Assembly: GCA_029263415.1 (NCBI GenBank)
Contig: JAJCXN010000048.1
Span: 263,169-327,168, forward strand
Direction: 5' to 3'
DNA: 64,000 bases
From: Acidobacteriota bacterium
Lineage (GTDB): Bacteria; Acidobacteriota; Thermoanaerobaculia; Multivoradales; Multivoraceae
The position numbers and the translations under genes are program-made. Below are positions 54,126 through 64,000 of this stretch, in pieces (the stretch's first letter is position 1; every line of letters begins with the position of its first letter). The notes beneath the pieces were generated by a model, which was given only the letters and a program-made list of their open reading frames with translations, was not told the origin of the DNA and did not search any database.

Positions 54126-54473
54126 ATGCCTGCTCGACCGCTAGAACTTATGCAGGGGACCCTCGACATGCTCGTGCTCAAAGCACTGGCGTGGGAACCG
54201 CGGCACGGCTACGCCATCATGCGTTGGATCCGTGACACATCAGGAGAGGATCTGCAGATTGAAGAGGGTGCGCTCTATCCTGCCCTGCACCGGATGCACG
54301 CAAGGGGTTGGATCAAGGCCGATTGGGGGCGTTCGGAGAACAACCGTCGCGCCAAGTTCTACTCGCTAAGCGCGGACGGGAAGAGTCACCTCTTGAATGT
54401 CACCACGGGTTGGCAACGCTATTCGCGAGCAGTCGGGCGAGTGCTAGAAGCTACCCAGAGCACTGCGCCATGA
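54126..54473 (+). CDS. PadR family transcriptional regulator (module 4)
   Basis: 115 residues. The winged helix has ELMQGTLDMLVLKALAWEPR, HGYAIMRWIRD and EGALYPALHRMHARGWIKAD, with the wing SENNRRAKFYSLSADGKSHL. This ENNRRAKFY wing is the form most often seen in PadR genes upstream of ADOP permeases. A GGGGAG site lies eight bases before the ATG and is part of the second palindrome, so a bound repressor would also hide the ribosome binding site's DNA. It overlaps the permease start by 4 nt (ATGA at 54470-54473). Confidence 0.93.
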   Translation: MPARPLELMQGTLDMLVLKALAWEPRHGYAIMRWIRDTSGEDLQIEEGALYPALHRMHARGWIKADWGRSENNRRAKFYSLSADGKSHLLNVTTGWQRYSRAVGRVLEATQSTAP

Positions 54474-57124
54474 GCGGCCTCAAACGGGTGCGTCGGTTCG
54501 GCAATGGTCGCGCGGTTCATGAGCAAGAACTCGGCGAAGAAATGGAACTGCATATCGCTAGCCTGGCAGAAGAGTTCGAACAAGCCGGCCTCCCTCCTGC
54601 GGTAGCACCTGCCAAGGCCGAGAAACAGTTCGGCGACCCAGCCGGATACCAACATGTCTGCTCGACCATCGATAGGAGGGAGCAAGTGGTCCGGCATTGG
54701 TGGTCAGGCATCGCCGGCCTGCGATTTGATCTTTCAACCGCTGTCAACAGCATCCTCGCGCGACCCGTCTACGCGGCCACCGTGGTCCTCACTCTTGCTC
54801 TAGCGATCGGCATGTGCACAACGATCTACTCGGTGGTCGACGTCGTCATGCTCAAGCCTCTAGATCTGCCCGCGCCCAACAAGCTCTTAATGGTCCGTGA
54901 GATCGAGCGCGACACAGGTAGCTTCAACTCCGTTGCGCCGGCGAACTTTACAGATTGGCGAGATCAAAGCAGTAGCTTTTCTGCCATCGCCGCTATCGAA
55001 CAGCGAGAACCGACTCTTGGCGGCATAGACGAGCCGATAAGACTGCAAGCAGCGGCCGTGACTGAGGACTTCTTTGTTGCCGTTGGCGTGCCACCGATCC
55101 ACGGACGGGTCTTCGATCACTCTGAACACTCGAACCTCGATGCGCGGGTCGCGCTGCTATCGCACCGCATGTTCAAGGAAAGGTATTCCTCCGATCCAAC
55201 CATCATCAATTCGATCATTACGTTGGACGGCGAGAACATCGAGGTGATTGGCGTCATGCCGCCGAGCCTAGATATTCCCCTCGATACAGATCTGTGGGTA
55301 CCCCTAGTCTTCGATTTCGACGTGATGGGAGCCCGCGGCGCACACTACCTATCGGCAATCGGACGGCTCAATGACAACACCAAGTTCACTGAAGCGACGG
55401 CTGAGATGGACACCATTGCACAGCGACTCGAATCTGCGTATCCGGACACAAACACCAACTCGGGCATCGACCTGACTCCCGTGGTCGACATGCAAACCGG
55501 ATCGCTACAGCCAGTCCTGTGGTCACTCGCAGCCGCCGTGGCTATCGTGCTCTTGATTGCCTGCGCCAACGTTGCAGGCCTGGCACTGGCGCGCGCCAGC
55601 GACCGCGAGAACGAAATGGCGCTGCGGGCCGCCCTTGGCGCAGATCGCGGCCGACTCACCCGGCTATTACTTAGCGAAGCATCGCTTCTAGCGATCGCGG
55701 GCGGCATCGGCGGAATGCTCTTCGCCTGGCTCGCAGTGACCCTTCTCGTGCCGCAACTTCCGTTTGATCTGCCGCGAACGGAGCAGATTGCACCTGACGC
55801 AAGAATGTTCGCGTTTGCGTGCGCGACCACTGCGATCTGCACCCTCCTGTTTGGCATCGCTCCAGCACGCCGATTGTCAAAAGTTCCTGTGGAACGCATG
55901 CTGCGTGAAGGCAAGACGGCCAGCGCCGGTGTCGGCGGCAAACTACGGCTTCGTCAAGGCCTCGTCTCTTTTGAACTCGCCCTAGCCATAGTCCTTCTCT
56001 CGGCATGTGGACTGCTGACCCGCAGTCTCGCGGAGCTCAGCGCAGTAAATCTCGGTTTTGAGACTGCGGAAATCCTGACGCTCGAACTGGATCTTCCTGA
56101 AAACCGGTACGACGAAGGTCGCGAGGTTGCCTTCTACGAACAGTTGATCGATCGACTGCAGGCCGTGCCCGGAATCGAATCAACCGCCGTTGCACCCTGG
56201 CTCCCTCTAACTTCCGGCTGGTACTTCTCGTTTCAGATTGTCGGTGACGATGAGCCCGCTGAAGGCAGCCGCCAAGGTGCCAACCTGCGCATGATCAACG
56301 ACGACTACTTCGAGACTCTTGGAATCCAGGTCCACAAGGGTCGCGTCTTCGAGCAAACCGATCATGCCGAAAGTCAGTCGGTCGTCGTCGTGAATCAGGC
56401 GCTTGTGGATCGTTACTTCCCCAACAGAGATCCAATCGGCGAGGAACTCGAACTCGGCTACGGCCGTTCAGACAGCCCCGAAATACAAAGACGCATAGTA
56501 GGTGTGGTCAGCGACGTTCGCCACTTCGGACCTGCGGGCCCGGCTTTGCCCACCGTGTACGCCTCACATCGGCAGATCCCGTTCTCCGCGATGGCAATCG
56601 CGATCCGTACTAGCGGCGACCCACTGGCGCTTGCACCGCAGGCCCGGGCTGTAGTGAACAATCTGGATCCGAGCCTCGCGGTCAATCGCCTTCAGACCAT
56701 GGAACAACGCTACGCCGAGCGGCTGGCACTGCGCCGGTTTGTCCCGGCACTCCTCGGCCTCTTTGCGGCGGTGGCCGTAGTACTCACGGCGCTTGGTCTT
56801 TACGGAGTGCTCTCTCAACTGGTCGCTAGAAGCAAACCAGAATTCGGTGTTCGACGCGCGCTTGGCGCTACCAGCCCGACCATCATGAAACTAGTTCTGG
56901 GCCGTGTCGCGATCCTACTGGTGGTCGGTCTCGGCTTCGGCCTAGCCGGCGCTTGGGTCTCCGCACGGCTGTTTGAGAGCCTGTTGTTCCGCGTAGAACC
57001 GGGCGATCCGATCACCATGGCAAGCGTAATTCTGGTCCTGGCCTTGGCCGCGATCGCGGCGAGCCTCGGGCCCGCCATGTACGCAAGTCGCGTCGATCCG
57101 GCCCGCGCGTTGCGTGAGCAGTAG
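54470..57124 (+). CDS. ADOP family ABC-type permease (module 4)
   Basis: 884 residues from the ATG overlapping the PadR stop; the earlier in-frame start at 54308 lies inside the PadR gene and is not used. The helical prefix (HEQELGEEMELHIASLAEEF, AKAEKQFGD) matches module 3. The first membrane helix is near 100-120 (VVLTLALAIGMCTTIYSVVD). FtsX signatures are RENEMALRAALGADRGRL and the diverged SKPEFGVRRALGATSPTI. PCD motifs are FFVAVGVPPIHGRVF and YFETLGIQVHKGRVF. The tail is YASRVDPARALREQ, without the usual PARRA. A short hairpin overlaps the stop. The substrate is unknown. Confidence 0.92.
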   Translation: MSGLKRVRRFGNGRAVHEQELGEEMELHIASLAEEFEQAGLPPAVAPAKAEKQFGDPAGYQHVCSTIDRREQVVRHWWSGIAGLRFDLSTAVNSILARPVYAATVVLTLALAIGMCTTIYSVVDVVMLKPLDLPAPNKLLMVREIERDTGSFNSVAPANFTDWRDQSSSFSAIAAIEQREPTLGGIDEPIRLQAAAVTEDFFVAVGVPPIHGRVFDHSEHSNLDARVALLSHRMFKERYSSDPTIINSIITLDGENIEVIGVMPPSLDIPLDTDLWVPLVFDFDVMGARGAHYLSAIGRLNDNTKFTEATAEMDTIAQRLESAYPDTNTNSGIDLTPVVDMQTGSLQPVLWSLAAAVAIVLLIACANVAGLALARASDRENEMALRAALGADRGRLTRLLLSEASLLAIAGGIGGMLFAWLAVTLLVPQLPFDLPRTEQIAPDARMFAFACATTAICTLLFGIAPARRLSKVPVERMLREGKTASAGVGGKLRLRQGLVSFELALAIVLLSACGLLTRSLAELSAVNLGFETAEILTLELDLPENRYDEGREVAFYEQLIDRLQAVPGIESTAVAPWLPLTSGWYFSFQIVGDDEPAEGSRQGANLRMINDDYFETLGIQVHKGRVFEQTDHAESQSVVVVNQALVDRYFPNRDPIGEELELGYGRSDSPEIQRRIVGVVSDVRHFGPAGPALPTVYASHRQIPFSAMAIAIRTSGDPLALAPQARAVVNNLDPSLAVNRLQTMEQRYAERLALRRFVPALLGLFAAVAVVLTALGLYGVLSQLVARSKPEFGVRRALGATSPTIMKLVLGRVAILLVVGLGFGLAGAWVSARLFESLLFRVEPGDPITMASVILVLALAAIAASLGPAMYASRVDPARALREQ

Positions 57125-58187: not shown

Positions 58188-59576
58188 TCAGCGGTCTTCG
58201 AGGCCGACCAATATCTCGTCCAGAAGCGCTCGGTCTAAGAGCTTGCCCCGCAAGATGACGGCTTCGATGCTGTCGAGGGCGCCAAGATCTTCGAAGGCAT
58301 TCTCTCGAAGGAGAACCAGATCGGCCGGTGAACCCTCCACCAGTTGCCCCTGCAGCGGGTCGCCGCCAGCACGTACTCCTGGCCCGCGACTAGACGCCCG
58401 CAGGGCCTCCGCGGGACTGAGCCCTGCTTGGATTAGGAGCCGTATCTCGGCGTGAAGATCGAAGCCTGGAAGCAGACCTCCCGCTGCCAGGTCCGTTCCC
58501 GCTCCGATCGGAGCACCCTGTGCGTGTAGGAGCCGCACGAACTCGAGTCCAGAATCGACAAGACTCTGACGAATCGTGATTACCGGTTTCATGCGATCCG
58601 CGGCGGAGGGCGCGAAGCCGGCGGGCCAGATCTCTGCGTCGGCCCCTAGATAGCGCTGCCTCGGGTCCGGGTTATCAAACGCCTCTGCCCGATGAGCCCG
58701 GAGTTGGTAAGCACGAAGGGTGGGCACGAAGAGCGTCTTGTGTTTGGCGAAGCATTTGGCCAACTCCAACGCTTCGGTTCTGATCCATTCGGGAAAGGAT
58801 TGGAAGGCCTGCATCTCGTTGGCAAAAGCAGCAAGGTACGTACCTTCGAAAATGGTTGCAATGTGCTCGATCGACGCCTGCCCCGCCTCACACGCTTCCA
58901 CCGGCGACACCGTGGTCGGAATGTGCCCAGCGACCGTCAGACCGGCTTCAGCGGCTGCTTCGATCAGCGCGAAGTAGGTCCTACGATCGGTTGCGTTGTG
59001 CGTTTTGAGTAGATCCATCCCGGCATTTCTCAGTTCGTCAACCGCCTGCCGCGCAGCTTGGGGCGAATCGATCACTCGATGGTGAGCGCCGTTTGCAGCT
59101 CCGTTGAGCGTCGGACCCGCTCGGACAATCCGGGGTCCCAGCAGGGCGCCCTCTTCAACGCGGCGACGAAGAGCCTCGATCTCTTCCGGGATTGAACCAA
59201 GCTCTCGGACCCCCGTAACGCCCTGGGTCACCAGCAGCGGAAGCGCCTTCTCGTTGCCTAGATGAATCAAGTGCGTATGCAGATCCCACAGGCCCGGGAT
59301 GAGGAACAGGCCGGCCGCGTCGATGACGTTGGCTTCCTCAGGCACCTCGAAGAGCGCGTCTGGCTTCACCGCAACGATGCGGTCACCAGCGATGACAACG
59401 GTCGACGGGGTGCTCGGAGTGGCGAGCATGGGATCCAACAGGACGACTCCTCGCAGCACCAACGAGAAATCCGACTGTTGCCCGTGTGCGACTGTAGGTA
59501 GAAATGGGGCGGATAGGAGCAGGGCCGACAGCACCCACAAGCGACACAGAGGACTTCTGCAGTTCTGGATACTCAC
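58188..59576 (-). CDS. secreted amidohydrolase family protein
   Basis: 462 residues from GTG 59576, preceded by GGAG at six bases; the longer frame from 59657 would sit before the signal peptide (RLWVLSALLLSAPFLPTVAHG). It has the imidazolonepropionase/prolidase-like fold: VVIAGDRIVAV, the HxH metal site FLIPGLWDLHTHLIHLG (His100, His102), a probable bridging Lys in DLLKTHNATD, AGHIPTTVSP, ASIEHIATI and the catalytic Asp in GAGTDLAAGG. The end has the usual composite beta-domain (GQLVEGSPADLVLL). Substrates of secreted relatives include dipeptides and cyclic amides; this one cannot be assigned. Divergent from the envelope cluster at 59863. Confidence 0.88.
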   Translation of the reverse strand: MSIQNCRSPLCRLWVLSALLLSAPFLPTVAHGQQSDFSLVLRGVVLLDPMLATPSTPSTVVIAGDRIVAVKPDALFEVPEEANVIDAAGLFLIPGLWDLHTHLIHLGNEKALPLLVTQGVTGVRELGSIPEEIEALRRRVEEGALLGPRIVRAGPTLNGAANGAHHRVIDSPQAARQAVDELRNAGMDLLKTHNATDRRTYFALIEAAAEAGLTVAGHIPTTVSPVEACEAGQASIEHIATIFEGTYLAAFANEMQAFQSFPEWIRTEALELAKCFAKHKTLFVPTLRAYQLRAHRAEAFDNPDPRQRYLGADAEIWPAGFAPSAADRMKPVITIRQSLVDSGLEFVRLLHAQGAPIGAGTDLAAGGLLPGFDLHAEIRLLIQAGLSPAEALRASSRGPGVRAGGDPLQGQLVEGSPADLVLLRENAFEDLGALDSIEAVILRGKLLDRALLDEILVGLEDR

Positions 59577-59862
59577 GTTGATCTCCAAACACTGTGGCGT
59601 CTTGCGCGCTGCGCGAGCCATTGAGTGGTGAGTAGTTCTACGGTCAAGGCCATACACAAAGACTGTCTAGGTATCGATCCACAGTACGCAAGAATGAGTT
59701 CAACGGTTGCGCGGAAGTGACAGGAAGCGATGCCTATTCACGCGTTCAACCGCTCGCCTGCCCTGCTGTCACCTCTCGCCGAAACCTCTGGCGGTGTCCG
59801 TCTAAACCTTCGCACTACGTAGAAACAAATGGATTCCACCTAACAACTTTGGGAGTTCAACG

Positions 59863-60219
59863 ATGGCAGATCCGGCGATTCGTAGCGTGCCTGACCAGGC
59901 CAAGGTAGTTGTCCGCCGTGGCGCCGCTGAGACTGGGTATCGAATGGACGCCGAGTTGCGTTCTTTTGGCAAACTGCTCAAACGATGGCGCCACCAAGAA
60001 ATCGGCGACGCGAGGCGATCGAGACGACTATCCAAGGCCGATCGGGCCTACACGGTAGCGGTAGACGTGGTGTTCACCACCGCCACTGAGAAGACAGCTA
60101 CCTTCATCGTGGAAGTGATTGAGTCAAACGGATCTTCTTTCGCAAAGAAGCAGGTCGTTCGCAAAGGCAAGAAACCCGAGACAGCCAGCGGGGTTGTTCG
60201 CATTTCGATGAAATCGTGA
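59863..60219 (+). CDS. small basic protein of unknown function, first gene of envelope cluster
   Basis: 118 residues; GGAG lies seven bases before the ATG. No signal peptide or membrane helix is seen, so it is probably cytoplasmic. The N-terminal half is helical and rich in Arg and Lys (FGKLLKRWRHQEIGDARRSR). The C-terminal half looks like alternating beta-strands (YTVAVDVVFTT, ATFIVEVIES, KKQVVRKGKK, GVVRISMKS). I recognise no family. Its stop overlaps a GTG (GTGA) and lies 11 bp before the most likely start of the outer-membrane gene, so the two are probably co-transcribed and coupled. Confidence 0.65.
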   Translation: MADPAIRSVPDQAKVVVRRGAAETGYRMDAELRSFGKLLKRWRHQEIGDARRSRRLSKADRAYTVAVDVVFTTATEKTATFIVEVIESNGSSFAKKQVVRKGKKPETASGVVRISMKS

Positions 60220-60230
60220 AGGGGATGACC

Positions 60231-61772
60231 ATGCGTTCGCTCCTATCGCCAACGGTCATTCTCGGTCTTGCTTGCGTCTTCTCGATGATGCCCGCAAGCG
60301 CGCAGCTCGTACCCAACGATGTCTGCAAACTCAGCGACACCGTCGATGAGTGCGAGACAAAGGTGCAAGAGGCGCTGGATTTCGCGAGCGAAGCGAACGT
60401 CGTCGCCGAAGCCTGGGCTGAGATCACCAAGAAGAACACCGGCACCGGTAGCAGCGTCGGCACGGCGCGTGGAGTTCTGGACTACCTACTGAAGCTTGCG
60501 ATCGACGCGAACAGTGGCGGCCTCGGTGACGACCAGGAGACCGTAACTCTAGAACTCAACGAGTTCCTCGGCCTTCCCACTCAGCATGGCTACAAACTCA
60601 CCGCACAACTGGAACAGGCCACGGTTTCAGACAAGCTCCTAGCTGCCTTTCCCGAAGCAACGCGAGCCGCAAAAAAGGAGGAGCTAGCCAAGACGCTAGA
60701 CGACCTCGACAACGCCACCTTGGCTCTCAGCTGGAGCCCACAGAATCGTCGCTACGGTCGCGACCCGGACCAACAAGCCGACCTCTGGAACGCACTGTTT
60801 GCAACTGCTAAGCGGAGGGTCGAGAACCTGACTCAGGCGTCCGGAGCGGCCGCCAATCAACAAGACGACCTGCTCCAGCACATGATGGAGATCCCCGATT
60901 TGAAGGCACTGATGGACGCAGACGCACCCGACGAGAGCAAAACGGTGACCTTCCAACAGATCGCCAACGACCCGACCATCAAGAGCCAGCATCCCACCTT
61001 GGTTCAAGAACTGCTCATAGCAACGGTTCGGTCGCAGGAGGCTTGGACTGAGCGGGTTGAGGGCTTCGACGCTGCAGCCGCAGAGTTGAGTCTGGCAGGC
61101 CTAGCAGACCTCATCGACAACCAGCCGCAGCTCGAAGTGAAGTTGCAGCGCACCGAGCGAAACGAACTCGTTGGCGCCAATGAGAGCAGCGTTGCACTCA
61201 CCTATCAGCACGGGTTCGTCAACGTGAATCGCCTCCGCAACCGCCTTGACGGCTGCGGGGTCACTGCGGCCAACATCAAAGCGGTGGATCTTGGAACCGC
61301 AGACACAAGCACTGTAGACACCTTCTCGGAGTGCTACCGCGATCTCATGAGCACCTTCGATTCTCCCGCCCAGCGCTCGGGCCAGCGATTCACCGTGTCC
61401 TTGGACTATCGCAGTATTGACTCGATCGGTCTCGACCTTGGCGAGGGCATCCGTTTCGACTTGCCTTCCGACGACAAGGTTGTGGGCAGCCTCGCCTGGG
61501 GTCGCTACCTAAGTTTCGACGGCAAGGGCGTTGGTCAGTCGAGGATCGATCTGTCTTGGGCCTATGAGTGGACCGAGACCGCAGAAATGCGAAACCGTCG
61601 TTCGGTGGCTGAGCTGAGCTATGCCCAACGTGTTTCAGGCGACCTAGTGATGTCGGCTGGGTTCGTCTGGGCCAACAAGCCCGAGTTCATCACCGACGTG
61701 CAACAGGACCTCAGCGTTCAAGTCGGCCTAAAGTACAAGCTCTTCAGCAAGAGTGATTTCGGTACGAAGTAG
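60231..61772 (+). CDS. exported protein with probable C-terminal beta-barrel
   Basis: 513 residues from ATG 60231 with AAGGGG six bases upstream; ATG 60225 and GTG 60216 are alternatives. A signal peptide (LLSPTVILGLACVFSMMPASA) is followed by a helical region to about residue 310, rich in Ala, Asp, Glu and Gln (for example NDVCKLSDTVDECETKVQEA). The C-terminal third alternates polar and aromatic residues, as in outer-membrane strands: RFTVSLDYRSIDSIGLDLG, GSLAWGRYLSFDG, RIDLSWAYEWTETA, SVAELSYAQRVSG, LVMSAGFVWANK and DLSVQVGLKYKLF. A helical periplasmic part plus a barrel is plausible, though the final residue is Lys, not Phe. No family recognised. Part of the cluster with 59863 and 61851. 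Confidence 0.65.
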   Translation: MRSLLSPTVILGLACVFSMMPASAQLVPNDVCKLSDTVDECETKVQEALDFASEANVVAEAWAEITKKNTGTGSSVGTARGVLDYLLKLAIDANSGGLGDDQETVTLELNEFLGLPTQHGYKLTAQLEQATVSDKLLAAFPEATRAAKKEELAKTLDDLDNATLALSWSPQNRRYGRDPDQQADLWNALFATAKRRVENLTQASGAAANQQDDLLQHMMEIPDLKALMDADAPDESKTVTFQQIANDPTIKSQHPTLVQELLIATVRSQEAWTERVEGFDAAAAELSLAGLADLIDNQPQLEVKLQRTERNELVGANESSVALTYQHGFVNVNRLRNRLDGCGVTAANIKAVDLGTADTSTVDTFSECYRDLMSTFDSPAQRSGQRFTVSLDYRSIDSIGLDLGEGIRFDLPSDDKVVGSLAWGRYLSFDGKGVGQSRIDLSWAYEWTETAEMRNRRSVAELSYAQRVSGDLVMSAGFVWANKPEFITDVQQDLSVQVGLKYKLFSKSDFGTK

Positions 61773-61850
61773 CTGTCAGTAGCCAGATGTTGCTCGGACT
61801 AAAGTGCGAGCCGTCAACACAGCTCAGTCTCTCGACATTGAGGAGAAACG

Positions 61851-64000
61851 ATGAACTTGGAAGTGCAAACCTCGCAAGCAACGCGTTGGCGTCAGTGCTT
61901 GGTCCTCGTCATCAGCTGTGTTGGGCTGGTTTCGCAACTGGCGAAACCGGCAGCGGCGCAAACGGATCCCGAACGGGAGGAGACACAGAACTCATCTGCG
62001 TCTCCGTGTCAGCAGGCTGAGAGCCTGGCTGCGGCAGGCCTCTTGGATCAAGCAATCGCAGAATTCTCGAACGCTTCTTCCGAGCAATTGCTTTCCTCGA
62101 AGTGCAGCTGCGCACGAGAAAGCGTGACAGCAAAGCTCGCCGCCAACGCCACTGCTCTCCTTAAGGTCGGCCAGCTGACGGAGGCGCAAGAGGCACTGAA
62201 CAAGGGACTCACGCTCGAACCCAGCAGTGCCTGGCTGCTCCGCATCGCGAACCAGATCAGTGGACTAGAACTCGCCAAGAGCATCGCCCACGTGAGACGG
62301 CTTCGATCGGTGGGTAAACCTCAAGAAGCGAGAACTGCACTGAGCGTCCTCAATGAGAAACACCCCAACGCCACGGCGCTCTTGCAGCCGGATCTACTTC
62401 GCCTCGCATCTGGGCCAGGCTGGTGGCGCAGCATCCGAGGCTTTGCGCTGACCAACTGGATCTGGTTGCTGGAACTGCTGCTCGTATCCTTCGTGGCATG
62501 GCTGCTCCTCCGACGTTTCTGGACCAGGTTGCCGGCCGTACTGCGCTACTTCTTGCCTGGCGAGAAACTACTGCTCGAAGTTGCCGAAATGCCGGAAGAC
62601 TCGCCGCTTTCCAAAGGCGAACTCACCTCGGTCTTGGCCTCGGCCGTTCATCGGCTTGGACAGGCGCAGGACAGCTCCCGTGTCCGGCTGGTGATTGGAT
62701 CCCTGGACGAGCTGCCGGTACCCGAACTAGTCGAATCGGCGGGTCTGACCACCGGGTTGTGGACCGGCTTGGGCAAACTCCTCCAAGCCTTGTTGCCGAA
62801 ACCACTTGCAATCAACGTGCAAGCGATTCGTGCAGGCCATCAAGGGCCAGGACTAGTGCTACAGATCGCGCGAGGCAAGGCCGTGGTCGCTAGCCGATCC
62901 TTTGGAGCAAAGGAGATTCTTGGCAAAAACCACGCGCTTGTGCCAATCGATGCTTGGCTTCGGGTTGTTGAAGCCGCCGCTGTGTGGATGATCTTCACGC
63001 TCAACGAGCGTGCCGGCAAGCTCAAGAGGACCGTGGCCGGACTGGGATCGAGCGACTGGTGGGTCATTGCTCATCACCGCCTGGGAGTCATCAGCTTCGA
63101 TACCGAACCTGCCGACGACCGCAAACAGTCTAGATTCCATTTTGGTGAAGCGCTTGAGATCGAAAGTGACTACCGCCCAAGCCGGATCAACCTCGCCCGC
63201 GTCCTGCATCGCAGCGCCCCAGATGAAGCGATCCTCCAACTGGAACACGCGCTCGACTGCCACAACGACAAGGTCTATCTACCTCAGATTCCGCCCCCTA
63301 ACTCCGGCACCGTGTTTGCCAAGCTAAAAGCGATCTCAACAACCGATCTTGCAAACATGAAGCGCTGGCTTGGAGGAGAACCGTCGAAGCTGGACAAGCT
63401 CTCCGAGAAAGAGGCGCTGTTTAAGGGGCTCTACAACCTCTCCAACTTCACACTCGACCGATCGCTGGGAGAGCTCATTGAATCGAAGGTAGTACCCAAA
63501 CGGCCCCACCTTCCTGACGACGTCCGACTCGCCATCAAAGCCCTCGACCGATTGGCGGACCGAATGATGGAGGCGACTCACTACCTTGAGACGAGGCGTA
63601 CGTCCTTGTGGACCCGCATCACCGGCGAGTCCAAAGCCCGCCGAAACTTTCAACGATTCGTTCGCGAGTTTGCGCCCAAGGCACAAGCCGTGGCCGCAGC
63701 CGTTCAGCAACTCGAGGGTACCGATGACACCCAGCTCGACCAACTCGAGCAGCAAGCCACCGCCTCGGCTTCCGCGATTGAACTGGCCAATCTCTCGGTC
63801 GCCCGCTCCTTGTCCGCCTATCTCCAGGAGGACGCAACACTAAGAGACAACGAAGCTGTGGCAGCACTGGCGCTCTTAGAGCGCGCCGCTGCGGTAGGCG
63901 CCTGGGTCCTAGGCTGGGCAGCTCAAGAACCGTACTTCGCCTGGCTATCCGGAGACCGCGTCGGCCAAGCGGTCCGCGATCGAGCAGGTAACGTGCTCGC
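61851..64000 (+). CDS. large membrane-anchored protein of unknown function (runs off the window)
   Basis: The ATG at 61851 (TTGAGGAG site seven bases upstream) opens a frame that is still open at 64000, giving at least 716 residues. It has an N-terminal export signal (QCLVLVISCVGLVSQLAKPA), then a periplasmic helical region with TPR-like pairs (AGLLDQAIAEFSNA, VGQLTEAQEALNKGLTLEPS). One membrane helix lies at about 203-220 (WIWLLELLLVSFVAWLLL). The remainder is predicted cytoplasmic, with a regular alternating hydrophobic pattern (LVIGSLDELPVPELVESAG, LVLQIARGKAVVASRSFG, WWVIAHHRLGVISFDT, VARSLSAYLQEDATLRDN). I found no known domain. It follows the barrel gene by 78 bp, so the three genes probably form an operon. 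The end is unseen. Confidence 0.72.
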   Translation, partial: MNLEVQTSQATRWRQCLVLVISCVGLVSQLAKPAAAQTDPEREETQNSSASPCQQAESLAAAGLLDQAIAEFSNASSEQLLSSKCSCARESVTAKLAANATALLKVGQLTEAQEALNKGLTLEPSSAWLLRIANQISGLELAKSIAHVRRLRSVGKPQEARTALSVLNEKHPNATALLQPDLLRLASGPGWWRSIRGFALTNWIWLLELLLVSFVAWLLLRRFWTRLPAVLRYFLPGEKLLLEVAEMPEDSPLSKGELTSVLASAVHRLGQAQDSSRVRLVIGSLDELPVPELVESAGLTTGLWTGLGKLLQALLPKPLAINVQAIRAGHQGPGLVLQIARGKAVVASRSFGAKEILGKNHALVPIDAWLRVVEAAAVWMIFTLNERAGKLKRTVAGLGSSDWWVIAHHRLGVISFDTEPADDRKQSRFHFGEALEIESDYRPSRINLARVLHRSAPDEAILQLEHALDCHNDKVYLPQIPPPNSGTVFAKLKAISTTDLANMKRWLGGEPSKLDKLSEKEALFKGLYNLSNFTLDRSLGELIESKVVPKRPHLPDDVRLAIKALDRLADRMMEATHYLETRRTSLWTRITGESKARRNFQRFVREFAPKAQAVAAAVQQLEGTDDTQLDQLEQQATASASAIELANLSVARSLSAYLQEDATLRDNEAVAALALLERAAAVGAWVLGWAAQEPYFAWLSGDRVGQAVRDRAGNVL

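Follow-up and report, generated by a model that had tools for sequence, protein, structure and literature searches.

Based on analysis of a stretch of 64,000 nucleotides (the window; contig 48, 263169-327168, of a 6.9 Mb genome), the adjacent genes P1 and P2 belong to a conserved, usually overlapping gene pair in Acidobacteriota. Downstream of them in the window lies P3, which encodes a separate membrane protein and is not conserved in this position. As judged by family libraries alone, the families of P1 and P2 are without a name. The pair has been kept together in one order, in another order of the same class (genome G304), and in another class of the phylum (G168). The original prediction was of a single, undescribed envelope system of three genes. 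The conserved unit turned out to be P1-P2, of which P3 is not a part, and a conserved pair of unnamed families is a weaker result than a trans-envelope system of three genes. Our preferred reading, to which we give a probability of roughly 45%, is that P1 is a co-translated, cytosolic partner dedicated to a channel formed by P2, and that P3 is an unrelated neighbour.

Gene layout and conservation of the P1-P2 pair

P1, P2 and P3 are open reading frames on the + strand at the positions originally given for them (Table 1), with intergenic gaps of 11 bp (P1/P2) and 78 bp (P2/P3). The unit is bounded on both sides by oppositely oriented genes. Upstream of P1 there is an amidohydrolase-like gene (by eye; 58188-59657, - strand), and the next plausible gene downstream is at L002:6063-6662, also on the - strand. 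Extension beyond position 64000 showed that P3 finishes at 64433 and is the last gene, with no additional one in the unit. No terminator-like site was found in either gap, and no sigma-70-type promoter-like site in L002:700-6300, although this consensus says little for Acidobacteriota.

Table 1. Coordinates of the three genes and of features within them (positions are those of the window unless marked otherwise).
Feature	Position	Strand	Extent	Basis or remark
P1	59863-60219	+	118 aa	ORF; first gene of the P1-P2 pair
Possible alternative P2 start (in-frame GTG in GTGA)	60216-60219	+		Sequence; overlaps the P1 stop
P2	60231-61772	+	513 aa	ORF
P2 signal peptide, ASA/Q	60231-60302	+	Residues 1-24	Hydrophobic segment; AxA by eye
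P2 barrel, 12 predicted strands	60495-61736	+	Residues 89-502	DSSP and pLDDT of the model
P2 predicted helical insertion, strands 4/5	60741-61127	+	Residues 171-299	Model, pLDDT about 46-78
P2 second predicted helical insertion	61215-61385	+	Residues 329-385	Model; contains Cys342/Cys368
P3	61851-64433 (in window to 64000; L002:3020-5602)	+	860 aa	ORF
P3 periplasmic TPR-like region	61959-62444	+	Residues about 37-198	TPR_14 E 0.001, below cut-off
P3 transmembrane helix	62454-62510	+	Residues 202-220	Hydropathy
P3 cytoplasmic conserved region	62523-63230	+	Residues about 225-460	Ends TPR-like; TPR matches in PDB sequence search

Of 72 genomes of the order, 11, including the window's own, had a match in a protein search with P2 (E<=0.01). 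One of these, in G032 (E 0.006, with a stop inside), was dropped, leaving 10 genomes; a class-wide profile search at E<=1e-5 did not recover it. With a profile of nine members, P2 was found in 12 of 148 genomes of the class, namely the same 10 together with G304 and G452. Searches of a phylum sample, which scored two or four candidates per genome and thus give lower bounds, found P2 in at least 6 of 396 genomes, adding G168 and G373; when two candidates were scored, the window's own genome alone was recovered. In total, P2 is represented by 14 loci, that of the window and those of 13 other genomes, all of the phylum Acidobacteriota. Scanning of contigs with short exact peptide patterns, which may miss relatives elsewhere, returned five loci that were already known (G043, G049, G052, G059, G036). 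There was no match to P2 in viral contigs, nor to P2 of G043 in plasmids.

The relatives of P2 share 20-29% identity with the protein of the window. Two cysteine pairs, Cys32/41 and Cys342/368 (numbering of the window protein), are invariant in the nine aligned members of the order, and both are retained in 11 of the 14 members (these nine, G304 and G168, where they are spread over the two pieces of P2). The first pair alone is present in P2 of G452, and neither is present in P2 of G373 or in the truncated P2 of G047. Cys342 and Cys368 may form a disulfide.

In 10 of the 14 loci a P1-like gene lies immediately upstream of P2 (G000, G002, G027, G059, G049, G052, G043, G037, G304 and G168). In eight of these pairs the two genes share 1 or 4 nt; in the other two, among them that of the window, they are separated by 11 nt. 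Given this pairing and overlap, translational coupling of P1 and P2 is probable. P1 was not found beside P2 in G036, G047 (where P2 is truncated) and G452, and P2 can therefore do without it; the call of presence did not extend to G373, in which P2 sits 192 bases from the contig end. A search of the 72 genomes of the order with the P1 profile identified eight genomes, each at a known P2 locus, and no copy elsewhere. Co-occurrence in these genomes (P1 in 8, P2 in 10) gives a Fisher p=4e-9, a value that is too favourable, since neighbours of P2 served to build the P1 model and the genomes are related.

Since the relatives of P1 are just 9-17% identical to P1 of the window, their relatedness was tested by leave-one-out profiles, covering 3 of the 10 P1 proteins (those of the window, G168 and G304). 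The profile built from the nine others recovered P1 of the window at E=5.8e-7 among 1673 sequences. Of the 1662 sequences that were not relatives (ORFs and 500 shuffles), a shuffle scored best, at an E of 0.2. P1 of G168 was likewise recovered, at E 6.8e-10. For G304 the test failed (E 0.87), so that its P1, unrecognised by sequence without itself, owes its membership to position.

All three proteins had been thought to match no known family. This holds for P1 and P2 of the window, which gave no match above cut-off in Pfam or NCBIfam and none in PHROGs at E<=1, but only in part for P3, which has TPR-like and DUF4332-like regions. None of the PADLOC families (anti-phage defence) matched P1, P2 or P3 at E<=1. 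Over all members, the best Pfam match had an E of 0.029 for P1 (10 members) and 0.0036 for P2 (14 members; BBP2, in one member), which amounts to no match of P2 to a known porin family. A PDB sequence search returned nothing for P2 at E<=1 and three chance-level matches for P1 (E 0.52-0.94). Two candidate assignments were rejected: BREX PglW (NCBIfam) for P2 is a chance match, at 17 bits against a cut-off of 990 and in 1 of 14 members, and a ribbon-helix-helix protein for P1 (Pfam E 0.06) is contradicted by the beta model described below.

P3 and its relation to the pair

The topology first proposed for P3, with an export signal, a periplasmic TPR-like part, one transmembrane helix and a long cytoplasmic part, was borne out. 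Cys53 and Cys87 are conserved in all three members of the family. At the C-terminus, beyond the end of the window, there is a DUF4332 (PF14229) region; this family matches the tail of P3 in 3/3 members at E<=0.1 (best E 2.9e-16), with P3 of the window scoring 22.5 bits, under the curated cut-off of 23.2. In at least 28 further genomes of the 145 of the class, the P3 profile matches nothing but the tail (positions 666 and up). There, the matched stretch is mostly in short open frames, whereas in P3 it forms the cytosolic end of a membrane protein with TPR-like regions. DUF4332-like regions are, by the P3 profile, widespread in the class (e.g., L007:8787-9689). A literature search for DUF4332 led to a paper on heliorhodopsin.

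Full-length P3 is present in at least 3 of 145 genomes of the class, a lower bound as six candidates were scored per genome: that of the window, G037 (25-27% identity to P3 of the window) and G051 (26%). Short exact peptide patterns for P3 returned no locus in the contig scan, and P3 of the window and of G051 had no match in plasmids. In G037 the gene is on a different contig from P1-P2. In G051 it lies between oppositely oriented genes, and the search of the order found no P2 in that genome. Since its full-length relatives are away from P1-P2, P3 is placed outside the conserved pair; for this gene, the conserved synteny on which the original prediction depended was not found. P2 is present in two of the three P3 genomes of the order, which is slightly above chance (p=0.049) and too few to decide.

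These observations bear on the idea of a single trans-envelope machine made up of P1, P2 and P3, in which the periplasmic part of P3 contacts P2. Such a machine would account for three genes on the same strand, closely spaced without a terminator-like site and isolated between oppositely oriented genes, and G037 does carry both P2 and P3. Moreover, P3 of G037 is preceded by a gene for another exported protein, which is barrel-like by eye. However, comparison with hhalign gave no support for a relation of that protein to P2 (probability 0.3%), P3 is not beside P1-P2 in either G037 or G051, and no full-length P3 was found in the eight other P2-bearing genomes of the order. A three-gene machine is thus considered unlikely. 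According to the preferred reading, P3 would be an inner-membrane protein in its own right, TPR-like on the periplasmic side and with TPR/DUF4332 regions on the cytosolic side. In the window it may share the transcript of P1-P2 and could touch the periplasmic part of P2, an arrangement that is not conserved.

Predicted structures and possible working of the pair

The model of P2, based on 14 sequences, is of moderate confidence (mean pLDDT 69.8, pTM 0.62). P2 is predicted from it to be an outer-membrane beta-barrel with a porin-like fold, in agreement with the signal and barrel that had been expected for this protein. By hydropathy, a hydrophobic N-terminus reaches the threshold in 9 of 12 P2 proteins, including that of the window. 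Strands one and two (89-95 and 103-110) are of low confidence, with a pLDDT of about 39-65. Strand alternation, with both ends of the barrel in the periplasm, would place both long helical insertions on the periplasmic side.

When the P2 model was compared with known structures by VIA, CymA ranked first (Z 11.9, 5.9 A over 210 residues), followed by many porins at about Z 11, and 498 of 984 aligned chains had a Z>=8. Foldseek gave FapF as top match and as the sole one at E<=0.001 (E 7.9e-4, probability 1.00), with a poor alignment (TM 0.21/0.36). Like the porin-type barrels (VIA Z 10-12) CymA, OmpG and Omp32 and also FapF, P2 is predicted to form a barrel, for which the model gives an even number of strands, two of them at low confidence, and it has an N-terminal signal. 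It differs from them in having no sequence family match, in the two long helical insertions predicted between strands, in the two cysteine pairs of most members, and in its small partner, which is probably co-translated.

P1 was modelled (AlphaFold2, 10 sequences) as a seven-stranded beta-sandwich, with a pLDDT of 86.3 and a pTM of 0.78. In VIA, entries of DUF4425 came first (4qey, Z 7.6, 3.7 A over 103 residues; 3u6g, Z 7.5), followed by two NMR structures, both of Bacteroidales proteins (Z 6.8 and 6.1), and, from Z 5.6 downward, a mixed set that includes 5-lipoxygenase (Z 5.5). As these values are below 8, the likeness may perhaps reflect a common arrangement alone. Foldseek also placed 3u6g first (E 0.018), and there was no match to the P1 model at E<=0.001, either in Foldseek or in the viral structure library. 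DUF4425, which we take to be a PLAT/C2-like family of calcium-binding lipoproteins with an extracytoplasmic fold, aligns with the P1 model across 103-107 residues at 8-13% identity. P1, by contrast, has neither signal peptide nor lipobox and shows no sign of export as a lipoprotein, and hydropathy revealed no hydrophobic segment or export signal in any of the 10 P1 proteins. P1 had been described as a small, basic, cytoplasmic-looking protein. The lack of an export signal agrees with the last of these terms, but basic charge is not a trait of the family, whose members range in pI from 4.4 to 10.6.

Under the preferred reading, translation of P1 would feed straight into that of P2, so that both proteins are made together. 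P1 would stay in the cytosol, where it might handle the P2 precursor before export or control P2 output, and P2 would be a channel that is gated or scaffolded by its predicted periplasmic helical part. The overlap of a gene for a leaderless protein with one for an exported barrel raises the question of how a cytosolic protein could serve one of the outer membrane; indeed, it argues against a partnership that P1 and mature P2 would occupy different compartments. Should P1 act on the P2 precursor, it would join the few known aids that are specific to a single outer-membrane client.

Alternatively, P2 might be a channel for secretion across the outer membrane, with P1 as the small protein that passes through it and the periplasmic helices gating the channel as in FapF. 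The tight pairing of the two genes would fit such an arrangement, as would the extracytoplasmic nature of the fold nearest to P1 and the rank in Foldseek of FapF, a secretion barrel for functional amyloid. Yet the alignment with FapF is poor, VIA puts ordinary porins first, and FapF is not among its 50 best matches to the P2 model. P1, being devoid of a recognisable export signal in all of its members, would have to leave the cell by an unrecognised route, and a paired inner-membrane exporter was not noticed among the neighbouring genes, which were mostly read by eye. We regard this alternative as quite improbable. A more specific proposal is that Acidobacteriota have in P1-P2 a minimal pair for secretion or surface display, of a kind not yet described, leaderless P1 being co-translated with its own FapF-like gated barrel and exiting through it; this is very unlikely to be correct.

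Protease-type neighbours and surroundings of the locus

A gene with a CHAT, caspase or papain domain is located near P2 in 5 of the 14 loci. CHAT genes are found at distances of 5.2 kb in G000, 0.4 kb in G049 (NACHT-CHAT) and 0.6 kb in G047 (TPR-CHAT). In G002 there is a caspase-domain gene (Pfam E 1.3e-7) 0.9 kb from P2, and P1-P2 of G168 has a papain-family (C1) gene 0.14 kb downstream in the same orientation (L061:3-842). Three loci with CHAT within 8 kb compare with 0.57 expected (p=0.02; post hoc and uncorrected). Peptidase-like genes of other types are near P2 in G059, G304 and G452, which makes the grouping of CHAT, caspase and papain an arbitrary one. Nearness to such genes is only a lead, not a result. 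A literature search for Thermoanaerobaculia together with CHAT returned nothing.

It is highly improbable that protease-type conflict systems have P1-P2 as their effector or target, for instance as a pore opened by cleavage. Orientation and protease type vary among loci, and none of the three types was seen at the other nine, where neighbours were mostly read by eye and a single gene was scanned with Pfam in G027 and in G037. A genome can hold as many as 44 CHAT matches, and a genome-wide search at E<=1e-5 missed the caspase domain of G002. P1-P3 have no PADLOC match, and P2 is exported whereas the proteases of CHAT, caspase and papain conflict systems are normally cytosolic.

Convergent to P3 is a - strand cluster at L002:6063-11304 (64894-70135 in window numbering). 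It encodes a small protein that is papain-like by eye and has no Pfam match (L002:6611-7216), a protein of 314 aa, and a CHAT-domain protein (E 4e-46); an ORF that overlaps the CHAT gene in another frame has weak TPR matches. Near this cluster, at L002:11977-13881, a sigma-70-like gene (below cut-off) is immediately followed by a gene for a zf-HC2 protein (anti-sigma type). On the other side of P1-P2, positions 54308-57124 of the window hold a large ORF that resembles, by eye, an ABC-transporter permease, presumably of the duplicated orphan type common in Acidobacteriota.
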